Shown piece by piece: positions 1-15,903 of a stretch of 20,060 nt of DNA (positions are counted from its first letter, which is position 1; every line of letters begins with the position of its first letter). The notes under the pieces were generated by a model, which made no database searches, was not told where the DNA came from, and worked only from the letters and a program-made list of their open reading frames with translations. The DNA comes from a virus. The stretch spans positions 1 through 20,060 of the IMG/VR virus record IMGVR_UViG_3300036652_000642; one strand, written 5' to 3'. A program made the position numbers and the translations under genes.

Positions 1-26
1 ACGCCCTTTCTATAAAAGCGTTTCAT
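1..26 (-). CDS. Possible 5' end of the next tail gene (partial)
   Basis: An ATG at 24-26 opens a frame reading M-K-R-F-Y-R-K-G to the window edge. An in-frame stop lies upstream at 45-47, so the frame cannot start earlier than that. A TACTAT element sits 20 nt upstream in the gap after the sheath gene, which supports a new transcription unit. In contractile-tail phages the gene after the sheath is usually the tail tube, but eight residues cannot show that. The Shine-Dalgarno sequence is weak (AAAGA-like). Confidence 0.35.
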
Positions 27-46
27 CTGAATATTACTTAATCTTT

Positions 47-53
47 ATAGTAC
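47..53 (-). promoter_or_regulatory. Variant late-promoter-like element (GTACTAT)
   Basis: On the minus strand this reads A-GTACTAT-AAAG. It shares the core TACTAT with seven other intergenic copies and lies between the sheath stop codon and the candidate ATG at 26. It differs from the TTACTAT consensus only in the first base. No -35 box is visible, since the upstream sequence is the end of the sheath gene. Confidence 0.4.
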
Positions 54-55
54 TT

Positions 56-1414
56 TTAGAAGTTCACCGATACACTCAATGTTACCGAGCGAATTTCGAA
101 AGCAGGTGTTAGGACGAGATCGACTTCTGCCGAATTTTGTGCAGGCTGGAATGATACATTGAAGTCTGCGGCGTTTAGCGCACCTAGGGTAATCATACCA
201 CGTAGTGCTGAGCTGATTGCAGTCTGGAAAGCATTCTGAACATTAAGGCTTGCAGGCTGACCAACGAACTGTAGTGAAATCTGACGTACTGACTGCACAG
301 CCGCGAAGATTACTCTCATTGTTGTTAGGCGAGCATAGTCAGAACCTACTAGCGAGAAAGTAGGAGCATCTACCCAGTAAGGTACATTACTGAAATTCAA
401 AGCTAGAGGAACTAGATTCATATTGTCTACACTAGCTAGCTGTGAATGTGCTGGATTGTAACGTACTGCAGAGATATTGCTCAATTGCTTACCTGTTGGT
501 GCAATCCAAGCTGATAGCTGCTGACACGTAGCTGCATATGCACAAGCACTATTTGAATAACCCCAGTCATATATACCATTCACCTGATCGAATGGATATG
601 TAACAGGAGTAGATTCACCGACTACAACAGAAACATAAGGACCATACATTCCCATTACGCTCTTATTTGCAGCTAGCGTAGCTAGCGGATAAACCCCAGA
701 TATACTCTGGAAGTTTGTAAAGGCTAGATAATTCTGAAGTTCTGCTGCAGTAACGTTCTGCATTGCATTAGCACCGATACCAACATATGGGCGAACACCC
801 ATAATAGAGAAGCATGGGCTAGAACTTGAAGTGATCCCTGCCGTTAGCTGTGCAATTCGAGTTACCATCGGAATACCACTTTGACTAGTCATGTCAGCGT
901 AGTATCCAAATGCTGGGGCAGCGGGTACCGAGGTATTGTTTCCGGGAGTTGCGTCGAATAGATATGCGTTAGGTGTGGCGCTAGTTAGGGTCCAGTCAAG
1001 TGGATGACCACCACGACCCCAAGGAACAATAATATCCGGCTGTGCAGTCTGAGCTGCCTGGAAGGCAGAATCAGTGATATTTAGTACACCAGTACCACGA
1101 GCGTCAGTAACATTGCCTTCTTTGACTAGATCGGCGTCTACTGCGAATGATGGTAGGGCCACAATTACAATATTGGAGCATCCACCTGCTACTAGTTCAA
1201 GATATGCGCGATGCGCTTGTGAGCCAGCGCCAAAAGCATTTATTGCCTGCTGCTCGCTAAAGATACGATAAGGATCTAGGTCAATGACACCACCCGTTCC
1301 CGAAGCGGTATTCCGGCCTGCGATTACACAAACCTGGGGTCCCGTTGGAGGAGTAGCCTTATTAAGACTATAAAATTGATCCTTGATAATGGTAGTTACA
1401 CCAGGAAGTGCCAC
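56..1414 (-). CDS. Tail sheath protein (sheath-like protein 2)
   Basis: 452 aa. It probably forms the contractile outer tube of the tail. The N-terminus (M-A-L-P-G-V-T-T-I-I followed by a strand ending V-I-A-G-R) and the segment with F-G-A-G-S-Q-A-H and V-A-G-G-C-S-N-I-V-I-V resemble the N-terminal domain of phage sheaths. The last ~100 residues have the sheath C-terminal pattern: a helix with R-x-I-S-L-Q-F-V-G-Q, then A-F-Q-T-A-I-S-S-A-L-R-G-M, then paired strands ending V-S-V-N-F. The start is GTG at 1412-1414, chosen because GGAGG lies 9 nt upstream (1424-1428). It has its own 146-nt upstream gap with a TTACTAT element, so it is separately promoted. It resembles the protein at 2211-3404 in fold but not closely in sequence. 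Family call is by pattern, without a search. Confidence 0.8.
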   Translation of the reverse strand: MALPGVTTIIKDQFYSLNKATPPTGPQVCVIAGRNTASGTGGVIDLDPYRIFSEQQAINAFGAGSQAHRAYLELVAGGCSNIVIVALPSFAVDADLVKEGNVTDARGTGVLNITDSAFQAAQTAQPDIIVPWGRGGHPLDWTLTSATPNAYLFDATPGNNTSVPAAPAFGYYADMTSQSGIPMVTRIAQLTAGITSSSSPCFSIMGVRPYVGIGANAMQNVTAAELQNYLAFTNFQSISGVYPLATLAANKSVMGMYGPYVSVVVGESTPVTYPFDQVNGIYDWGYSNSACAYAATCQQLSAWIAPTGKQLSNISAVRYNPAHSQLASVDNMNLVPLALNFSNVPYWVDAPTFSLVGSDYARLTTMRVIFAAVQSVRQISLQFVGQPASLNVQNAFQTAISSALRGMITLGALNAADFNVSFQPAQNSAEVDLVLTPAFEIRSVTLSVSVNF

Positions 1415-1499
1415 TTGCCTTAACCTCCGAAAACTTTCTTTTAATCGAATACGAATGCCGACACAGGGCCGGAAAGGTCATAAAATCTATTCTTTTATG

Positions 1500-1506
1500 A
1501 TAGTAA
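1500..1506 (-). promoter_or_regulatory. TTACTAT promoter-like element upstream of sheath gene
   Basis: The minus strand reads CATGAT-TACTAT-CATAAAAG. It lies in the 146-nt gap (1415-1560) before the sheath gene, 85 nt from the GTG start, which has a GGAGG ribosome site. An A/T-rich run (TTTTTTATAGG) lies just upstream. A 4-bp GGCC hairpin at 1536-1548 precedes it and is too weak to call a terminator. The rest of the gap shows nothing I can name. Confidence 0.55.
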
Positions 1507-1560
1507 TCATGAAGCCTATAAAAAACTTCTCTTTTGGCCAACAAGGCCTCTTTGTATCTA

Positions 1561-2208
1561 CTAGTTAGGAGTACTACCGCTAAACTGATCGATTATATCC
1601 AAATAGATAGTAGGTGTTGCTTCTTCAAGCCATACGGGATTACTTGCTAGGTATGTTTGAATATTAACATAAACCGTATTGAGCTTATTGTAATCAACTT
1701 GAATGATCTTTTCTGTAATTACTTGGAAAGTAACTGAATTTTCATGCATTATCTTTCCTAGAGGACGCTGATCTTCTGTATCAGGTTCTCTGCGACCATA
1801 GAAGATATCTGATACCCCTAGTTGCTTATATACCGGGGTCATCTCTAGCATGAAGTCTTCAAATTGCTCAATAATAGCTTCGGCCAGATGGGGATCTCGT
1901 TCGGTCCAAACAGTAAAGGTAATATAGTTATTAAACCTCTGGCCTTTATTCACAATTGCCGAATCCTGCGGACGCGTAGCTATGGTCTCACGGTATCGAG
2001 GCTTTGTCTCGTCTTTAACGGTGTTTCGATACGCTAAACGATAAGTTATTACAGGATATTTAGATACTTCCGGGCCTCCAGCGGCTATAAGTGGGATATC
2101 GGGGTGAGTATCTATCCAGGTCTTTTGTACTACACGCATAAACCTAATATAGTCCAAATTACCTGTAGCAGTTAATCTGTTATGTTGGTAAATCGGCGGC
2201 TGTTGCAT
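1561..2208 (-). CDS. Probable tail terminator / tail completion protein
   Basis: 215 aa, not confidently recognised. It lies between the two sheath-like genes and follows the stopper-like and adaptor-like genes, which is where tail-terminator (tail-completion) proteins normally sit. These cap the tail and join it to the neck. Visible features support a small alpha/beta protein of that kind: an N-terminal helix (D-Y-I-R-F-M-R-V-V-Q), a strand with Y-P-V-I-T-Y-R-L-A-Y-R, then N-N-Y-I-T-F-T-V-W-T-E-R-D, a helix A-E-A-I-I-E-Q-F-E-D-F-M, and the strand E-N-S-V-T-F-Q-V-I-T-E-K. The order helix, strands, long helix, strand fits, but the assignment rests mainly on position. It starts 2 nt after the stop of the previous gene, so translation is probably coupled. 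It ends the operon that begins at 5485. Confidence 0.5.
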   Translation of the reverse strand: MQQPPIYQHNRLTATGNLDYIRFMRVVQKTWIDTHPDIPLIAAGGPEVSKYPVITYRLAYRNTVKDETKPRYRETIATRPQDSAIVNKGQRFNNYITFTVWTERDPHLAEAIIEQFEDFMLEMTPVYKQLGVSDIFYGRREPDTEDQRPLGKIMHENSVTFQVITEKIIQVDYNKLNTVYVNIQTYLASNPVWLEEATPTIYLDIIDQFSGSTPN

Positions 2209-2210
2209 TT

Positions 2211-3404
2211 TTATGTACCTGGTCCTACATTGACTACGAATTCAATTGTGCGCAACATCCCATATAGCTGAATGCCCACATTAACTATTATATTACTACT
2301 ATCATTCTGATTGCGATTAACAACCAAACTAAAGTTTTGAATCATACCCTTATTAACTAAACCCACAAGATAATTCTGTACAGCTAATTGGAATGATACT
2401 AAGGAGCTTCCACCTAAATTGCGCCTCGATAAACCAGCAATGACATCGATGATATCTTGAACCGCTCTAGTATTACTGATACACCAATAATCCGAAAAGG
2501 GTGGAGCTAATGTATTATCCGAAGAACAGATAACCTGGAAAGGCTTCCCACGACGACCCATTGTAGTTAGAGTCATCATATTCAGACTAGCATTAGCTAT
2601 TCTTGAAGTCTGTGAGGAGGTCGGAGTTTGAACCAATCCAACTATGTTAGGTAAAACGAAATTAGAAATACTCCGATTCAGAGGTAACTGACATAACTGT
2701 CCAGCAATTGAGGCTGTAAGAGAAGTCACATATGAAGTAGGCATCTCCTGTAGATTGATTAAACCTTCACCCACAAATACTGCTACGTATTGGCCAATCT
2801 CTTTAGTTCTATTAATATATAGGGAATTACCGGGAGTAATACGTGGGTCCGCAACCATAGCCGAAATCTCGGCTTCAGTAAGTGCAACACCCTTTCTGGT
2901 ACCTAATAACCCAGTTCTCATAGAACCGGTTGCAAGTAATGAATCGGCACAATGTTCTGCTAGAGGAGTAAGAAAGTCTACTCCAAGTACGTTAAAGGGA
3001 GCCTCTAGTGGAACGATCCACTGCACAATATCCCAATCAACTATTACATTGTAAGCGACCTGCAATTGAGCAGCATACGTCGCATACCATGATTGGTCCC
3101 TTTGGCTTGGATCTGATATGTATTGTGACATCGGAGCCACAGCTACTAAATAGATATCCTTAGCCTGACCATAATAGCACTCTAATAATCCCCGCATCAG
3201 CGGAGAGTTAGCATCATATTTTAGAGCTGCAACTGCCGCTTTAATATCAGTAACTGCATATGGGTCATTAAGGGTAGGAAGATCTCCATGCCCTAAAAGG
3301 AATATTTTATCAGTTAGACCAACATTAAGAACATTATAGTTCTGACTGACATTAATAACACCAGAGATACTCGGGGCAACCCTGTTCACATCTATAAAAG
3401 TCAT
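2211..3404 (-). CDS. Sheath-like protein 1 (tail sheath paralogue)
   Basis: 397 aa. The N-terminal part (residues ~10-95) follows the sheath pattern: A-P-S-I-S-G-V-I-N-V-S, then K-I-F-L-L-G-H-G-D, then a helix, then G-Q-A-K-D-I-Y-L-V-A-V-A-P. The C-terminus follows the sheath C-terminal domain: R-A-V-Q-D-I-I-D-V-I-A-G-L, then a helix, G-M-I-Q-N-F-S-L-V-V-N-R-N, and final strands G-M-L-R-T-I-E-F-V-V-N-V. It is shorter than the protein at 56-1414 and sits between the stopper-like and terminator-like genes, an unusual place for the main sheath. It could be the main sheath, a second sheath subunit or a neck-proximal collar. It starts 3 nt after the preceding stop and belongs to the 5485-to-1561 operon. 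Confidence 0.65.
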   Translation of the reverse strand: MTFIDVNRVAPSISGVINVSQNYNVLNVGLTDKIFLLGHGDLPTLNDPYAVTDIKAAVAALKYDANSPLMRGLLECYYGQAKDIYLVAVAPMSQYISDPSQRDQSWYATYAAQLQVAYNVIVDWDIVQWIVPLEAPFNVLGVDFLTPLAEHCADSLLATGSMRTGLLGTRKGVALTEAEISAMVADPRITPGNSLYINRTKEIGQYVAVFVGEGLINLQEMPTSYVTSLTASIAGQLCQLPLNRSISNFVLPNIVGLVQTPTSSQTSRIANASLNMMTLTTMGRRGKPFQVICSSDNTLAPPFSDYWCISNTRAVQDIIDVIAGLSRRNLGGSSLVSFQLAVQNYLVGLVNKGMIQNFSLVVNRNQNDSSNIIVNVGIQLYGMLRTIEFVVNVGPGT

Positions 3405-3407
3405 AAA

Positions 3408-3995
3408 TTAACCACCAAGTTGTTGACCCTCGATACTCATACGTGCCAACCCACAGAGATAATAAACAGGTTGTCTATTTAAGCCTACCTCTGGGTGCGC
3501 GTAACGTATCTCCCAAAGGGTCGTACCATTAGGAAAGCGCTTATCGGGAATATAAACTCTATCACCTTCATTGGGGATAGCTGCCGGGGGAAAGTACATA
3601 ATCATCGGTATCGAATGTGATTCGCCTTCTGGCCGATCCATTTCCATATCCGGGATTTGAGTCTTACGAGATGCCATAGTATAACGTACGGTCCAACGTT
3701 CAATCTTGTTCGACCAGTATGATTCATCTGCCGTCTGAATGTCTGGATTTTCTGTAACACTTGGGTTCTCCCCCGGTTCAGACTCTAGACGACGGCCATT
3801 ATAGCCTTCTGCTGAATCATACTCTAAATTTTCGTTATAAATATCCCACGTTTGATCTTCTAAATTTATCTCATTACGAATTAATGAATATAAACCACTA
3901 CCGCGCCTATATACGCGTCTTTGTAAATATATGTCCTCGCCAAAGGCAGCTAAAGTTGCCAAGAAGACAGTTGCTGGATCAGTTTGATTATACAT
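3408..3995 (-). CDS. Probable head-closure (stopper-like) neck protein
   Basis: 195 aa, not recognised by sequence. It starts 2 nt after the stop of the adaptor-like gene and precedes the sheath-like gene, the usual slot for a head-completion or stopper protein that closes the portal channel. The C-terminal ~70 residues look like a small beta-barrel: I-P-N-E-G-D-R-V-Y-I-P-D, then T-L-W-E-I-R-Y-A-H-P-E, then P-V-Y-Y-L-C-G-L-A-R-M-S-I. The G-D-x-V followed by W-E-I and a final Y-x-L-x-R strand is seen in many stopper proteins. The middle (residues ~50-90) is acidic and probably flexible. The function is inferred from position and fold pattern. Confidence 0.45.
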   Translation of the reverse strand: MYNQTDPATVFLATLAAFGEDIYLQRRVYRRGSGLYSLIRNEINLEDQTWDIYNENLEYDSAEGYNGRRLESEPGENPSVTENPDIQTADESYWSNKIERWTVRYTMASRKTQIPDMEMDRPEGESHSIPMIMYFPPAAIPNEGDRVYIPDKRFPNGTTLWEIRYAHPEVGLNRQPVYYLCGLARMSIEGQQLGG

Positions 3996-3997
3996 AA

Positions 3998-5485
3998 TTA
4001 GCTACCAGGCTTAGAGTAAACCGACCAATCATTCCATTCAACATGATGGATCTGGCGCTCAGGCATTGGATTGTGTCGCTTTGCTCCACGGTATACATCA
4101 CGCATACCGGACTTCTTAGAGAGTTGATATAACTCGTTTCGCACAACTGCAGCTAACTCACACCATGTTTGTGCATTAGATCTATTCACACTATCTTTAA
4201 TCATTCGATTAAAAGAATAGGTTAGATCACCAATAGTAACGGCACCTTGGCCTGCCCCAGAAAGAACGTCGTAAATACGACTCAATGCACAACAAGTTGC
4301 TGCTTGTACAAAGTCTTGAACCGTTTGTGCGATTATCGCATCTCTGTCCATAAGCCCAGCCAAAGTGTCTGTCATTAAGACCTTTAAGATATTCTGAGCT
4401 TCTTGTGAATGTTGCGCTACAAGTTCTGCAATTTCATATGGTGAGGCCTGAGGGAATAGGGGATAGAACTCTTCAGGATCCAGCACCATTGGTTGTGGAT
4501 CTACTAAGAAACGAATATATTGATCAGACCCTAATGGGTTAAAGTTGCCATACTGATCTGTATATCCCACAGCACCAGAAATCTTTAACCGATACTTATA
4601 TCCATCCATCCAGAACATTGGAATTGGTGCTCCATACCCATAAAAGATATCTGTTGGATATGGAGCATTAACATAGGCGTCACCGTAGTTGCCTAACGCA
4701 TCATTGTAGTAGTTGAAGTATGGATCAGTAATTGGTATAGAGATTACCGGAGTCGCATCTTGTAGCGATGGAACAGAGATGTTTACGGTATTGCCACTTA
4801 CAGTAATAACAGCAGCGGTGACAGTCTGCCAAGGATTCATTCCCCTTGCAATTGGACGACACTGAAGCTGGAAATATGTAGTGCTTATGTAAGTTGAGTC
4901 TGGCAATACGTTAAAACTTACAGATATAACACCATTTCGATAATTAATCGGTACGACAATATCTGATTGATTATCAGGAGTAGTGTTAGTTAGATAGAAA
5001 GCTGGATTAGGCTGAATTATAGCGTTTAGATCTGTTGCTAAGTTTGTAAGTATAGAATGATCTTCTATATAAAGAGGCTCATCCGCTGGAGCACTCTCTA
5101 AAACTGTAGCTGCATTAGTTGAGAAGTGATAGACAAAAGGAGGAAGTGCATTTCCTACAGCGTCTGTGACCCCAGTAATTGTTAGGGTATATGATGTTGC
5201 AGCCTGGACTCCACGTAAAAAATTAAGTGTTAGAATCTTGGAAAGAGTATTGTAGTTACCGTTGTTGAATGGAGCAAAGGCATTAGGGATTGTTTGGGGA
5301 GTTGCTTCATTAGTTTGAAGTGTAACAGTGGAGTTTAATAGTGATGCGACACTAACACTCCTTTGAAACTTGATAGCAACAGCCGTATCAAAGACCTGTA
5401 CATGCGGGTCATTATATAGAGGGGCAACGACCGAAAACACATTCGGCATTTGTGCATTACCGCTGGGATCGAAGTAAAAGGTCAT
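3998..5485 (-). CDS. Virion protein: Ig-like N-terminus, adaptor-like C-terminus
   Basis: 495 aa. Residues ~15-130 look like a bacterial Ig-like (SbsA/Big_5-type) domain: D-T-A-V-A-I-K-F-Q-R-S-V, T-V-T-L-Q-T-N, then T-S-Y-T-L-T-I-T-G-V-T-D-A-V-G-N-A-L. The middle is beta-rich and tyrosine-rich (~130-330). Residues ~335-480 switch to helices, with E-I-A-E-L-V-A-Q-H, a long helix with A-A-T-C-C-A-L-S-R-I-Y-D-V-L, and G-A-V-T-I-G-D-L-T-Y-S-F, which resembles head-tail adaptors with an 'x-I-G-D-L' turn. It opens the neck/tail operon, which also fits an adaptor. The ATG at 5483-5485 has no Shine-Dalgarno sequence, but TTACTAT lies 10 nt upstream, directly after a terminator, so its mRNA is probably nearly leaderless. 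Surface display by the Ig-like part is inference. Confidence 0.5.
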   Translation of the reverse strand: MTFYFDPSGNAQMPNVFSVVAPLYNDPHVQVFDTAVAIKFQRSVSVASLLNSTVTLQTNEATPQTIPNAFAPFNNGNYNTLSKILTLNFLRGVQAATSYTLTITGVTDAVGNALPPFVYHFSTNAATVLESAPADEPLYIEDHSILTNLATDLNAIIQPNPAFYLTNTTPDNQSDIVVPINYRNGVISVSFNVLPDSTYISTTYFQLQCRPIARGMNPWQTVTAAVITVSGNTVNISVPSLQDATPVISIPITDPYFNYYNDALGNYGDAYVNAPYPTDIFYGYGAPIPMFWMDGYKYRLKISGAVGYTDQYGNFNPLGSDQYIRFLVDPQPMVLDPEEFYPLFPQASPYEIAELVAQHSQEAQNILKVLMTDTLAGLMDRDAIIAQTVQDFVQAATCCALSRIYDVLSGAGQGAVTIGDLTYSFNRMIKDSVNRSNAQTWCELAAVVRNELYQLSKKSGMRDVYRGAKRHNPMPERQIHHVEWNDWSVYSKPGS

Positions 5486-5495
5486 GGTAAGATAA

Positions 5496-5502
5496 ATAGT
5501 AA
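5496..5502 (-). promoter_or_regulatory. TTACTAT promoter-like element before the neck/tail operon
   Basis: The minus strand reads GAAAT-TACTAT-TTATCTTACC and then the ATG of the 495-aa gene, a gap of 10 nt. It lies immediately after the U-tract of the terminator at 5516-5535. No Shine-Dalgarno sequence is present, so transcription starting about 7 nt after the element would leave a leader of only a few bases. Confidence 0.6.
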
Positions 5503-5515
5503 TTTCAAAAAGAAA

Positions 5516-5535
5516 GACCGCCCCGTAGGGCGGTC
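5516..5535 (-). terminator. Rho-independent terminator of the lysin-like gene
   Basis: A perfect 8-bp GC-rich stem (GACCGCCC / GGGCGGTC) with a 4-nt loop TACG on the minus strand, followed by TTTCTTTTT. It lies 21 nt after the stop of the gene at 5557-6453 and separates it from the neck/tail operon. Confidence 0.9.
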
Positions 5536-5556
5536 AATCAAGAGTATTTAGTTTTC

Positions 5557-6453
5557 TTAGGCTCCTGAGCCGTAGAAACCAGCATCACCGAAGTTAAAGA
5601 CTCCACCGTCAGCGGCAACTAGCCAATAGCCATTGCCTGTAGGGGTAACCTTAAGTTCTACAATAGGCTGCGCAAGCTTTACGTTCCCAGTAGAACCGAA
5701 GAACTTAGCATCTCCGAAGCAGAAGACACCGCCATCAGCTCCCACTAGGTAATAACCATTACCACTGACAGTTAGAGCACCATCGACAATGGGAGCATTA
5801 AGTTTTGCACTACCAAGCGAGCCATGGAAAGCAGCATCTCCATGAGAGAAGACACCTCCATCAGCCTGAATTAAATAATAACCTTTACCGTCTTTGGTGG
5901 GAAACCCACCGATACAATTTGTTAGCATATTCACCGGAGTTGGACTAGGAGGGGGAGGATTAGTTGGTAAGAGATGATAGGGCCACACACCATTAGTATC
6001 CGAAATGTCATATGGACCAGCATCTTTCCACTGTGTCGCTACTGAACCATTACAAAGATATGGTGTGTTAGTATATCCTGCAGCCCATAGATAAACACCA
6101 TGAGCATCGTTAGGATCTGTCGAAAAGTGTAATCCATGTTGTTGTAACTGTGTAGCTACATTAGAGATATTGGAAACACTAGTATAGATAGTTGGATAAC
6201 GTCCTGCCTGGCGTTCGGCGCTGGCCCAAACTGCAGCTGCCACAGGTGTAACATCTCCTGTCTCGCAATCTACGACCATCGCCCCTTGATTATGAGAACC
6301 AAATACTGTTATAGTTACGATAAAAGCATTTGGATGATATTGCTTAGCTGCAGCAACATTAGCAAAAGCGCCATCAGTATATGCTCCTACAATCTGTGCT
6401 GATGCAGGAATGTTAGCCTGATTGACAGAATCATATAAATAAACTACAGACAT
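5557..6453 (-). CDS. Lysin-like glycoside hydrolase domain with three C-terminal ADGGVF repeats
   Basis: 298 aa. Residues ~1-160 resemble the GH25-like / DUF1906-type TIM-barrel domain of actinobacterial and actinophage proteins: Y-L-Y-D-S-V at the first strand, V-V-D-C-E-T-G-D (D62, E64 as candidate acidic catalytic residues), a helix with A-V-W-A-S-A-E-R-Q-A-G, then Y-P-T-I-Y-T-S, Y-L-W-A-A-G-Y-T, A-T-Q-W-K-D-A-G. A proline-rich linker (163-173) leads to three 22-residue repeats spaced 42 residues apart (191-212, 233-254, 275-296). No signal peptide is seen. It probably degrades host cell wall, as an endolysin or virion-associated enzyme; position inside the head-tail region favours neither strongly. 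It starts directly after the upstream stop, with AAAGGA 5 nt before the ATG, so it is co-translated with the 119-aa gene. Its own terminator follows. Confidence 0.7.
   Translation of the reverse strand: MSVVYLYDSVNQANIPASAQIVGAYTDGAFANVAAAKQYHPNAFIVTITVFGSHNQGAMVVDCETGDVTPVAAAVWASAERQAGRYPTIYTSVSNISNVATQLQQHGLHFSTDPNDAHGVYLWAAGYTNTPYLCNGSVATQWKDAGPYDISDTNGVWPYHLLPTNPPPPSPTPVNMLTNCIGGFPTKDGKGYYLIQADGGVFSHGDAAFHGSLGSAKLNAPIVDGALTVSGNGYYLVGADGGVFCFGDAKFFGSTGNVKLAQPIVELKVTPTGNGYWLVAADGGVFNFGDAGFYGSGA
5566..5883 (-). repeat. Three tandem protein repeats (Y-x-L-x-x-A-D-G-G-V-F type)
   Basis: Three in-frame copies encode G-Y-[YW]-L-[IV]-x-A-D-G-G-V-F-x-[HF]-G-D-A-x-F-x-G-S, each followed by a ~20-residue linker in the first two copies. 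The copies differ in codons, so they are old duplications, not recent ones. Repeats of this kind occur widely in actinobacterial secreted proteins and may bind a cell-surface ligand here. Confidence 0.8.
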
Positions 6454-8062: not shown

Positions 8063-8069
8063 ATAGTAA
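8063..8069 (-). promoter_or_regulatory. TTACTAT promoter-like element of the capsid gene
   Basis: The minus strand reads AAACCCTAT-TACTAT-TCGAAAT. It lies between the decoration-gene terminator and the capsid gene, so it is the only candidate promoter in the insulated unit. The upstream CCCT is shared with the copies at 11062 and 13973. Confidence 0.6.
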
Positions 8070-10498: not shown

Positions 10499-10505
10499 AT
10501 AGTAA
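10499..10505 (-). promoter_or_regulatory. TTACTAT promoter-like element of the protease-scaffold gene
   Basis: The minus strand reads AGACTTT-TACTAT-TTTAGATA, 32 nt before the start codon and 8 nt after the stop of the 51-aa gene. The gene it precedes has a GGAGG ribosome site, consistent with a leader of ~25 nt. Confidence 0.58.
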
Positions 10506-11061: not shown

Positions 11062-11068
11062 ATAGTAA
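11062..11068 (-). promoter_or_regulatory. TTACTAT promoter-like element of the 114-aa gene
   Basis: The minus strand reads AATACCCT-TACTAT-TGTTAAAG, in the 65-nt gap after the glycosyltransferase. AATACCCT closely matches the flank of the portal copy (ATACCCTT). No terminator is visible in this gap. Confidence 0.58.
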
Positions 11069-11087: not shown

Positions 11088-11879
11088 TTAAGGATAGATT
11101 CCTAGCCGATGCGCTACTTTTTCTAGATACATCAGTTTTCGGGGATCTCCCCTCTCCAAATATTCCTCAAGCATCTGTCTACTCATGATATGGGGAGAAT
11201 AAAGGTTACTTGCGCAGTAGAGTTTAATGCCCTTATTTGCGGCATCACGGGACCAACCCAAATCTTCCCCCTGCTTATGCCAAGCATAACGAACGTTCCG
11301 ATAAACCACGGGTGTCATCATTACCGCTGCCATAATTACATCAGCTTGGAATACTTCACCTAAAGGATATCTAGAATGATCACGAAAGGCTCTACCATCT
11401 GCGACCCAAGTCATAACCGAGGGAAAATCGATGTTTATTGGAGTCATATATAATAGAGGATTAACCGCTTGAAGGGTATGAGTTAACTCAAATAATTTGG
11501 ATATTGTACGTGGATCTTCCAAGAGAACATCTGTATCTAAGGAGAAAAGACGATCTGGCTTAAGTTGCGTAACTCTATCTAAGATATTATTTCGCATTGT
11601 TGCCATATGGATATAGTGATCTTTAGTCCAAGACCGAGTACCTTCTGGATGAGTCTTATGTGGAACCTGATGATTTACATGAAGGTCGAAATGACGTACT
11701 TCTGGGTGTCTTTCGTGAAAATCAATAAGACAGCCTAAGGTTGCATCGTCGTTGGGTGCAAGTTCAAATACGAATCCCAGGTCGGCTAAGGGCCAATCCT
11801 GGGACTCAATGTAAGCAAACCATGTGGGTAATATCCACTCTCGCTGATAAACGGGAGCTGATATGATAATATAACTCAT
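11088..11879 (-). CDS. GT-A fold glycosyltransferase
   Basis: 263 aa. It starts with S-Y-I-I-I-S-A-P-V-Y-Q-R-E, the first strand and nucleotide-sugar loop of family-2-like glycosyltransferases. A D115-T-D117 motif within R-L-F-S-L-D-T-D-V-L-L is the metal/nucleotide-binding D-x-D. E205-D206 in Q-G-E-D-L-G-W-S-R-D matches the acidic acceptor-side motif that precedes W-x-x-x-A. It probably transfers a sugar to a virion protein or a surface glycan. The frame extends 24 codons upstream to 11951, but those codons overlap the 88-aa gene. The ATG at 11877-11879, one base after that gene's stop, is the better start because the conserved fold begins there. The gene lies in the portal-to-protease interval, unusual for such an enzyme. 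Confidence 0.78.
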   Translation of the reverse strand: MSYIIISAPVYQREWILPTWFAYIESQDWPLADLGFVFELAPNDDATLGCLIDFHERHPEVRHFDLHVNHQVPHKTHPEGTRSWTKDHYIHMATMRNNILDRVTQLKPDRLFSLDTDVLLEDPRTISKLFELTHTLQAVNPLLYMTPINIDFPSVMTWVADGRAFRDHSRYPLGEVFQADVIMAAVMMTPVVYRNVRYAWHKQGEDLGWSRDAANKGIKLYCASNLYSPHIMSRQMLEEYLERGDPRKLMYLEKVAHRLGIYP

Positions 11880-11880
11880 C

Positions 11881-12147
11881 TTATACTTCTGCTGGAACCT
11901 CTTCAGCCTTAGTACGGGCCTTAGCTGCTGGCTTCTCCTGTGGAAGCGCACGCTCTAGCAGATTTACAACATCCTGCTCTAACATTTCAACGCGCTTTAT
12001 TAGATTCTCAATAGCCTTATGGGCGTACTGTAGAGCCATAAGGGGCTGGTTATTGTCGGTTGTCTGCTTTAGGCCAGCCATAAAATCTTCCTGCATTCTA
12101 TACAGGGGACGTGGAGCAGACTGGGGACGGAACTGTTCATCGCTCAT
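11881..12147 (-). CDS. Small coiled-coil protein following the portal
   Basis: 88 aa, unrecognised. The middle (residues ~38-70) is a helix with heptad-like hydrophobics (A-I-E-N-L-I-K-R-V-E-M-L-E-Q-D-V-V-N-L-L) and the C-terminus is Ala/Lys/Glu-rich. It starts on the base after the portal stop, with AGGAG 8 nt before the ATG, and ends one base before the glycosyltransferase start, so the three are co-translated. The size and helix would suit an assembly factor or a small internal virion protein; this is inference. Confidence 0.75.
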   Translation of the reverse strand: MSDEQFRPQSAPRPLYRMQEDFMAGLKQTTDNNQPLMALQYAHKAIENLIKRVEMLEQDVVNLLERALPQEKPAAKARTKAEEVPAEV

Positions 12148-13972: not shown

Positions 13973-13979
13973 ATAGTAA
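13973..13979 (-). promoter_or_regulatory. TTACTAT promoter-like element of the portal gene
   Basis: The minus strand reads ATACCCTT-TACTAT-AAGGGG in the 50-nt gap before the portal, 31 nt from the ATG. CCCTTTACTATAAGGG is itself nearly an inverted repeat, so a hairpin or operator function is also possible. Confidence 0.58.
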
Positions 13980-15896: not shown

Positions 15897-15903
15897 ATAG
15901 TAA
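15897..15903 (-). promoter_or_regulatory. TTACTAT promoter-like element of the fibre gene
   Basis: The minus strand reads AAGG-TTACTAT-ATAAAAC and then ATG. It is the closest copy to a start codon (7 nt), placing the expected transcription start at or beside the ATG. It lies in the 16-nt gap after the 702-aa gene. Confidence 0.6.

Follow-up and report, generated by a model that had tools for sequence, protein, structure and literature searches.

In a 20,060-base virus record (IMGVR_UViG_3300036652_000642, positions 1 to 20,060; hereafter the window), which comes from a large phage (a virus of bacteria), two genes for proteins of the tail sheath type, here called A and B, flank a gene for a terminator-like protein, T. 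We consider the chances about even that B encodes the bulk sheath and A a low-copy sheath part of the tail-neck junction, likely forming one or more specialised rings at the head end. The main genes of the window lie on the − strand, in the order terminase, two repeat-rich virion-like genes, portal, protease, capsid, g495, neck, A, T, and B. As the window ends 55 bases past B, tube genes are not seen in it. The positions of A and B given in a preliminary description of this DNA agreed with the list of open reading frames; A, T, and B are all on the − strand. The genes in question, with product lengths in amino acids (aa), are as follows.

56..1414, − strand: gene B, starting with GTG, for the putative main sheath protein of the tail (452 aa)
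1561..2208, − strand: gene T, product of 215 aa, considered terminator-like from its position
2211..3404, − strand: gene A, sheath-fold paralogue in the neck operon (397 aa)
3408..3995, − strand: neck-like gene, directly upstream of A (195 aa)
3998..5485, − strand: g495, a protein with an immunoglobulin (Ig) domain and first gene of the neck operon (Pfam Big_5, E 2.3e-5)

Both sheath candidates matched PHROG 16991 (tail sheath), B with an E-value of 1.7e-27 and A with 4.3e-10. B passed the cut-off of Pfam DUF2586 (27.3 vs. 26.4 bits), and Phage_sheath_1C was matched at E ≤ 0.01 by 14 of the 20 members of the B alignment (A2). For A, 7 of 21 alignment members matched the latter family at the same threshold, the window copy scoring below its cut-off (20.6 vs. 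26.9 bits). The AlphaFold2 model of A had a predicted local distance difference test score (pLDDT) of 83.4 and was loose at residues 1–23 only. In Foldseek it matched sheaths with E-values down to 1.6e-13, and in VIA-align it matched 6j0n_V at Z 30.6, with a root-mean-square deviation (rmsd) of 3.1 over 325 of 397 residues; phage, pyocin, and injection-system sheaths all stood within a few Z of this best match. When sequence profiles were searched against chains of the PDB, no sheath was matched significantly, and fold comparison alone returned sheaths. The model of B was poor (pLDDT 55.0). Its best Foldseek match in the PDB was the pyocin sheath 3j9q (E 1.1e-9), and the matches listed were contractile-tail entries, with rmsd values mostly above 10; the case for B therefore rests on sequence. 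We thus concluded that A is a sheath by fold and B a tail sheath by sequence.

Direct comparison of the two window proteins revealed a strong difference, the best BLASTP pair being 21.8% identical over 188 aa (E 2.6). A profile of 21 A proteins nevertheless aligned with one of 20 B proteins over 343 columns (probability 95.6%, E 1e-8). Judged by these profiles, A and B are homologous, both being sheath proteins by descent. The tree was calculated from 224 columns of the C-terminal region (75 tips, LG+G4), with a sample of 42 of the 126 A and 26 of the 119 B proteins, the window proteins, and five named proteins. The 43 A proteins formed one clade and the 27 B proteins another, each with a support of 100, and the window was the first branch in both, which places the duplication before the split between the window and the sampled contigs. 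Among the named proteins, gp025 of KLEB27-3 (Bacillus, OM634661) and the second sheath protein of MTATph1 (Moorella, OR602862) joined B, with supports of 93 and 90, respectively. A evolved faster than B in 324 of 325 phage pairs (median ratio 1.82). We regard A as an old copy of the sheath gene, inherited together with B.

Relatives of B were found in 46 viral loci (38–42% identity), and all 46 encode A and T as well. A scan of genome contigs with B gave no relative, hence no host from that scan. When A alone was used as query, no relative was found in the viral contig collection, and tblastn of A against the phage collection found none. A wider scan was made with the A alignment, built of homologues found via B, and gave 159 matches, of which 80 were kept. 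The 126 loci represent 111 distinct contigs, many of them near-identical. A is present in 111/111 of these (65 of which were found via A itself), and the order A-T-B is seen in 107; the other four end before B, and T lies between A and B in every contig holding the three. Three long contigs (193–210 kb) that were searched whole carry one A and one B each. That A is an assembly factor or a relic, absent from the virion, is in our view highly improbable; its faster evolution would be in keeping with such a role, while its presence in all the distinct contigs and its intact predicted fold argue otherwise.

The control signals considered for the two genes are listed below.

1423..1428, − strand: GGAGGT, ribosome-binding site of B (match to the anti-Shine-Dalgarno pattern)
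1500..1506, − strand: TTACTAT, promoter-like core upstream of B, conserved in the T-B gaps of relatives
1517..1525, − strand: TTTTTTATA, upstream element of the putative B promoter, seen in the alignment of T-B gaps
5496..5502, − strand: TTACTAT, promoter-like core from the motif scan, putative start of the g495-neck-A-T unit
5516..5535, − strand: hairpin resembling a terminator, close upstream of the unit (8 pairs, 7 of them G-C)

In the window, A begins 3 bases after the neck-like gene and ends 2 bases before T. Across 25 non-redundant relatives the A-T gap has a median of 1 base (one outlier of 206 bases probably reflects a miscalled T start), while the T-B gap measures 78–117 bases. The ribosome site of B matches the anti-Shine-Dalgarno pattern over 6 bases and those of A and T over 4; the corresponding medians in the relatives are 6 for B, 3 for A, and 4 for T. 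TTACTAT occurs in the T-B gap of all 122 loci that hold A, T, and B (25/25 after dereplication), 43–60 bases from the start codon of B in the relatives and 92 bases in the window, and in most of these gaps the alignment shows a TTTTTATA-like element upstream of it. No TTACTAT was found near the start of A, and near the start of T it was present in 10/122 loci, or 1/25 non-redundant ones. The window holds nine copies, all on the coding strand, an unremarkable number (4.6 expected; 6 of 100 shuffles reach nine). Their placement is another matter, as seven of the nine fall within intergenic DNA, which makes up 6.5% of the window (P 1.6e-7). These seven (1500–1506, 5496–5502, 8063–8069, 10499–10505, 11062–11068, 13973–13979, and 15897–15903, − strand) precede B, g495, capsid, protease, g114, portal, and g452b by 14–112 bases. 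In this group of phages TTACTAT may serve as a late promoter. A scan of positions 1–6000 for sigma-70 promoters gave nothing above chance, and the promoter case for B consequently rests on the conserved TTACTAT. Although the number of hairpins like that at 5516–5535 in the region is not above chance, this hairpin together with the motif at 5496–5502 suggests that g495, neck, A, and T form one transcription unit and that B starts another. The results up to this point bear out what the preliminary description had proposed, namely two strongly diverged sheath-type genes under separate control, B with its own ribosome site and promoter-like element and A inside the neck operon; the refuting case that it had named, one of the pair lacking the sheath fold, did not arise for A, the model of which displays that fold.

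By codon usage B falls among abundant genes and A among those of the neck, which points to unequal amounts of the two proteins. With the major capsid protein (MCP) gene of the window as reference, codon adaptation was 0.549 for B, 0.405 for A, 0.404 for the neck-like gene, and 0.429 for T. In the relatives the first tube gene served as reference, and 24 of the 25 non-redundant loci were used (L058, where B is cut by the contig end, was left out); the neck gene was found in 19 of them and the tape-measure gene in 23. B scored above A in 20 of the 24, and the score exceeded that of the tape-measure gene in 21/23 loci for B and in 9/23 for A. Taken as proxies, codon usage and ribosome sites point to B being abundant and A scarce.

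The two proteins also differ in their arms. In known sheaths, each ring is linked to the next by a handshake of such arms (PMC8894135, PMC10491603). In B the N-terminal arm is the best-kept region, with an identity of 0.92 vs. 0.72 overall. The corresponding columns of A have an identity of 0.45 vs. 0.51 overall, in a stretch where the alignment is uncertain, and the A proteins of relatives have about 122 extra columns before it. The best-kept region of A is its C-terminal arm (identity 0.66). A thus appears to lack the conserved N-terminal arm of B, as far as the uncertain alignment there allows, and to keep the C-terminal arm. Keeping one arm, it would suit the end of a sheath better than the middle.

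The relatives' A proteins measure 491–718 aa and their B proteins 392–437 aa; A of the window (397 aa) is without the N-terminal domain of the relatives. This extra domain (L007:7584–7970 and homologues, alignment A4) gave weak Ig-like matches. The domain of the g495 homologues also has weak Ig-like matches. Identity of the two domains, which would have tied A to the neck, found no support (profile probability 0.7%).

A mixed sheath, in which A and B co-polymerise into a two-component lattice, is suggested by the name given to the case of phage PaBG (two-component tail sheath), whose two sheath proteins both appear as bands in the structural proteome (PMC7412058), and A and B each have a sheath fold or profile. 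Yet A and B differ in codon usage, ribosome sites, and promoter motif, the N-terminal arm of A is not conserved and has some 120 extra columns ahead of it in the relatives, and the pair has no BLAST-level similarity, as opposed to 38% identity in PaBG. We regard a mixed sheath as quite improbable.

In the mechanism that we favor, B would polymerise around the tail tube and contract. A, a duplicated sheath gene turned into a low-copy part of the tail-neck junction, would be translated together with the neck protein and T, fold as a sheath subunit, and form one specialised ring, or a few, in head-proximal position beside the terminator. Its C-terminal arm and handshake domain would serve to fasten the upper end of the contractile sheath to the neck, while its N-terminal arm would be freed from the lattice and, in most relatives, be accompanied by the extra domain. 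We put A at the head end on account of its co-production with the neck protein and T; from the genes and models we infer its low copy number, ring form, head-proximal position, and anchoring function.

T matches PHROG 20284 (virion structural protein) with an E-value of 2.5e-13, as do 15/15 members of its alignment (A3), and no Pfam terminator family was matched. We call it terminator-like on the basis of its position and of this PHROG, named only "virion structural protein". The protein has a conserved C-terminal tail, which we compared with the C-terminal arms of the sheath proteins; 19 of 399 blocks scored as high for B and 155 of 509 for A. Such a tail might mimic a sheath C-terminal arm and so show which sheath protein is capped; the difference between the two comparisons is slight.

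Several points weigh against a head-end role of A. The protein is known from its gene and model and from no virion. The tail of T is slightly closer to the C-terminal arm of B, which would fit T capping B directly. Codon usage does not favor B over A in 4 of the 24 relatives. In the tree, gp023 of KLEB27-3 and the first sheath protein of MTATph1 sit on long branches, with unclear orthology to A. Finally, the chains that A matches best by fold come from baseplate maps of injection systems, which would mean the opposite end of the tail; they do not discriminate, since these chains are also matched by the weak model of B.

These matches (6j0n_V, 9qgl_4A, and 6rao_E, from the PVC and AFP systems) could instead place A at the baseplate end, as a minor ring from which the sheath starts to polymerise. 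In AFP and PVC, minor sheath proteins at the baseplate end are credited with starting sheath polymerisation. Several consecutive tube-like genes follow B in the relatives, and injection systems likewise have multiple tube genes. Against a baseplate ring, A is part of the neck operon, ahead of T, and does not adjoin B, the model of B reaches the same chains, and the top VIA-align rows of A, phage sheaths included, tie within about 1 Z. We judge a baseplate ring unlikely, though it is the foremost alternative to a ring at the head end. The location in the neck operon would equally fit a collar, that is, a sheath-like sleeve or disc around the neck and outside the contracting sheath, such as the sheath-like gp13 that surrounds the neck of phage Milano (PMC10491603), and the extra N-terminal domain of relatives could be seen in the same light. 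The C-terminal arm as best-kept region of A instead suggests contact with sheath subunits, and we consider a collar rather improbable. As for the options left by the preliminary description, a top ring or collar and a copy diverged to a new role both fit the data, whereas the mixed sheath is the least supported, since codon usage, gene packing, and the N-terminal arm make A a minor component.

Of the genes next to A, the window copy of the neck-like gene had no family match in PHROG or Pfam, and tblastn found homologues in 12/46 loci. The gene at the same position in L007, MTATph1, and KLEB27-3 matches PHROG 38102 (virion structural protein). The C-terminal part of g495 was found in 46/46 loci. 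Upstream of the neck genes some relatives carry three or four similar genes in a row, each about 260–390 aa long and with the motif GxGVVLFENA (L002:3137–5756, L007:3305–5944, L109:3712–7485). Between the capsid and neck genes of the window lies a 298-aa protein (5557–6453) with repeats of the type GNGYYLV.ADGGVF; its start presumably resembles DUF1906, and a Pfam search of it gave nothing above cut-off. Within the head gene cluster a gene that looks by eye like a glycosyltransferase (11088–11951) overlaps its upstream neighbor. Downstream of B, three consecutive tube-like genes sharing an (F)SG.DI motif were observed at L007:11299–13881, in the same place in L002, L027, L069, L073, and L109, and at L049:12644–14544; PHROG labels the first two "major head protein", possibly in error. 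KLEB27-3 has three annotated tail tube genes in this position.

The layout described here can be set beside several known systems. MTATph1 and KLEB27-3 have the same order of neck-like gene, sheath, T homologue (E 8.1e-27 and 8.1e-8, respectively), and sheath, and both of their sheath genes are already annotated as such. The first and second sheath proteins measure 357 and 769 aa in MTATph1, and 621 and 502 aa in KLEB27-3. Of these, only the second one groups with B (support 90–93), the first ones sitting on long branches. A search for literature on either phage found no paper. Acinetobacter phage ME3, a more remote relative, has a related sheath, and its gp028, ahead of that sheath, matches T weakly (E 0.0016). 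In contrast to the window, the sheath was the single such match in its whole genome. Judged from this one outgroup, A may have been gained through a duplication.

The PVC and AFP injection systems have more than one sheath protein (PMC8894135). A resembles their sheaths, as seen from the match to 6j0n_V at Z 30.6. In AFP and PVC the sheath genes are contiguous and the minor sheath proteins are located by the baseplate. Such contiguity, as with Afp3/Afp4 of these extracellular contractile injection systems, is not seen here; A belongs to the neck operon, and T and the promoter-like TTACTAT separate it from B.

In pyocin, Milano, and phiCD508 the uppermost sheath ring takes up a C-terminal strand of the terminator into its handshake sheet (PMC10491603, PMC11948020), and T likewise has a conserved C-terminal tail. 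The top ring there consists of the ordinary sheath protein, whereas in the present phages the separate paralogue A may replace it.

That most contractile-tail phages have one sheath protein, as the preliminary description had put it, is a fair statement, but phages with two are in print. In PaBG, Alexandravirus, Salmondvirus, Baikalvirus, and Yoloswagvirus two sheath proteins arose by duplication (PMC7412058, PMC8472413, PMC9686651). The Pseudomonas phage PaBG is in this respect like the window. Its pair differs from A and B in being 38% identical (vs. 21.8% over 188 aa, E 2.6) and in that both proteins were seen as virion bands. Moreover, the PaBG proteins gp76 and gp213 are not encoded side by side, whereas A and B flank T, and the available excerpts describe no link of the PaBG sheaths to neck genes. 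Two-sheath phages have thus already been published (PaBG, Alexandravirus), and the present layout is a variant of that kind. The literature covered, with subscription journals mostly outside its scope, gave no description of a sheath paralogue in a neck operon beside the terminator.

How the upper end of the sheath is attached to the neck during contraction is known for few phages, all of them with one sheath in the literature covered. The two sheath proteins, together with the three consecutive tube-like genes of relatives, suggest a tail built of several specialised ring types. We tentatively propose, at somewhat less than even chances, that in a whole lineage of large phages the head end of the contractile sheath is closed by a dedicated, sheath-derived top ring that is expressed with the neck, has lost one arm, and in most members has gained a possibly Ig-like domain. 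If so, this ring would correspond, at the head end, to the special sheath rings that injection systems have at the baseplate. With a conserved pair of which one copy is seemingly kept for the junction, the question of anchoring becomes testable in the isolates KLEB27-3 and MTATph1.

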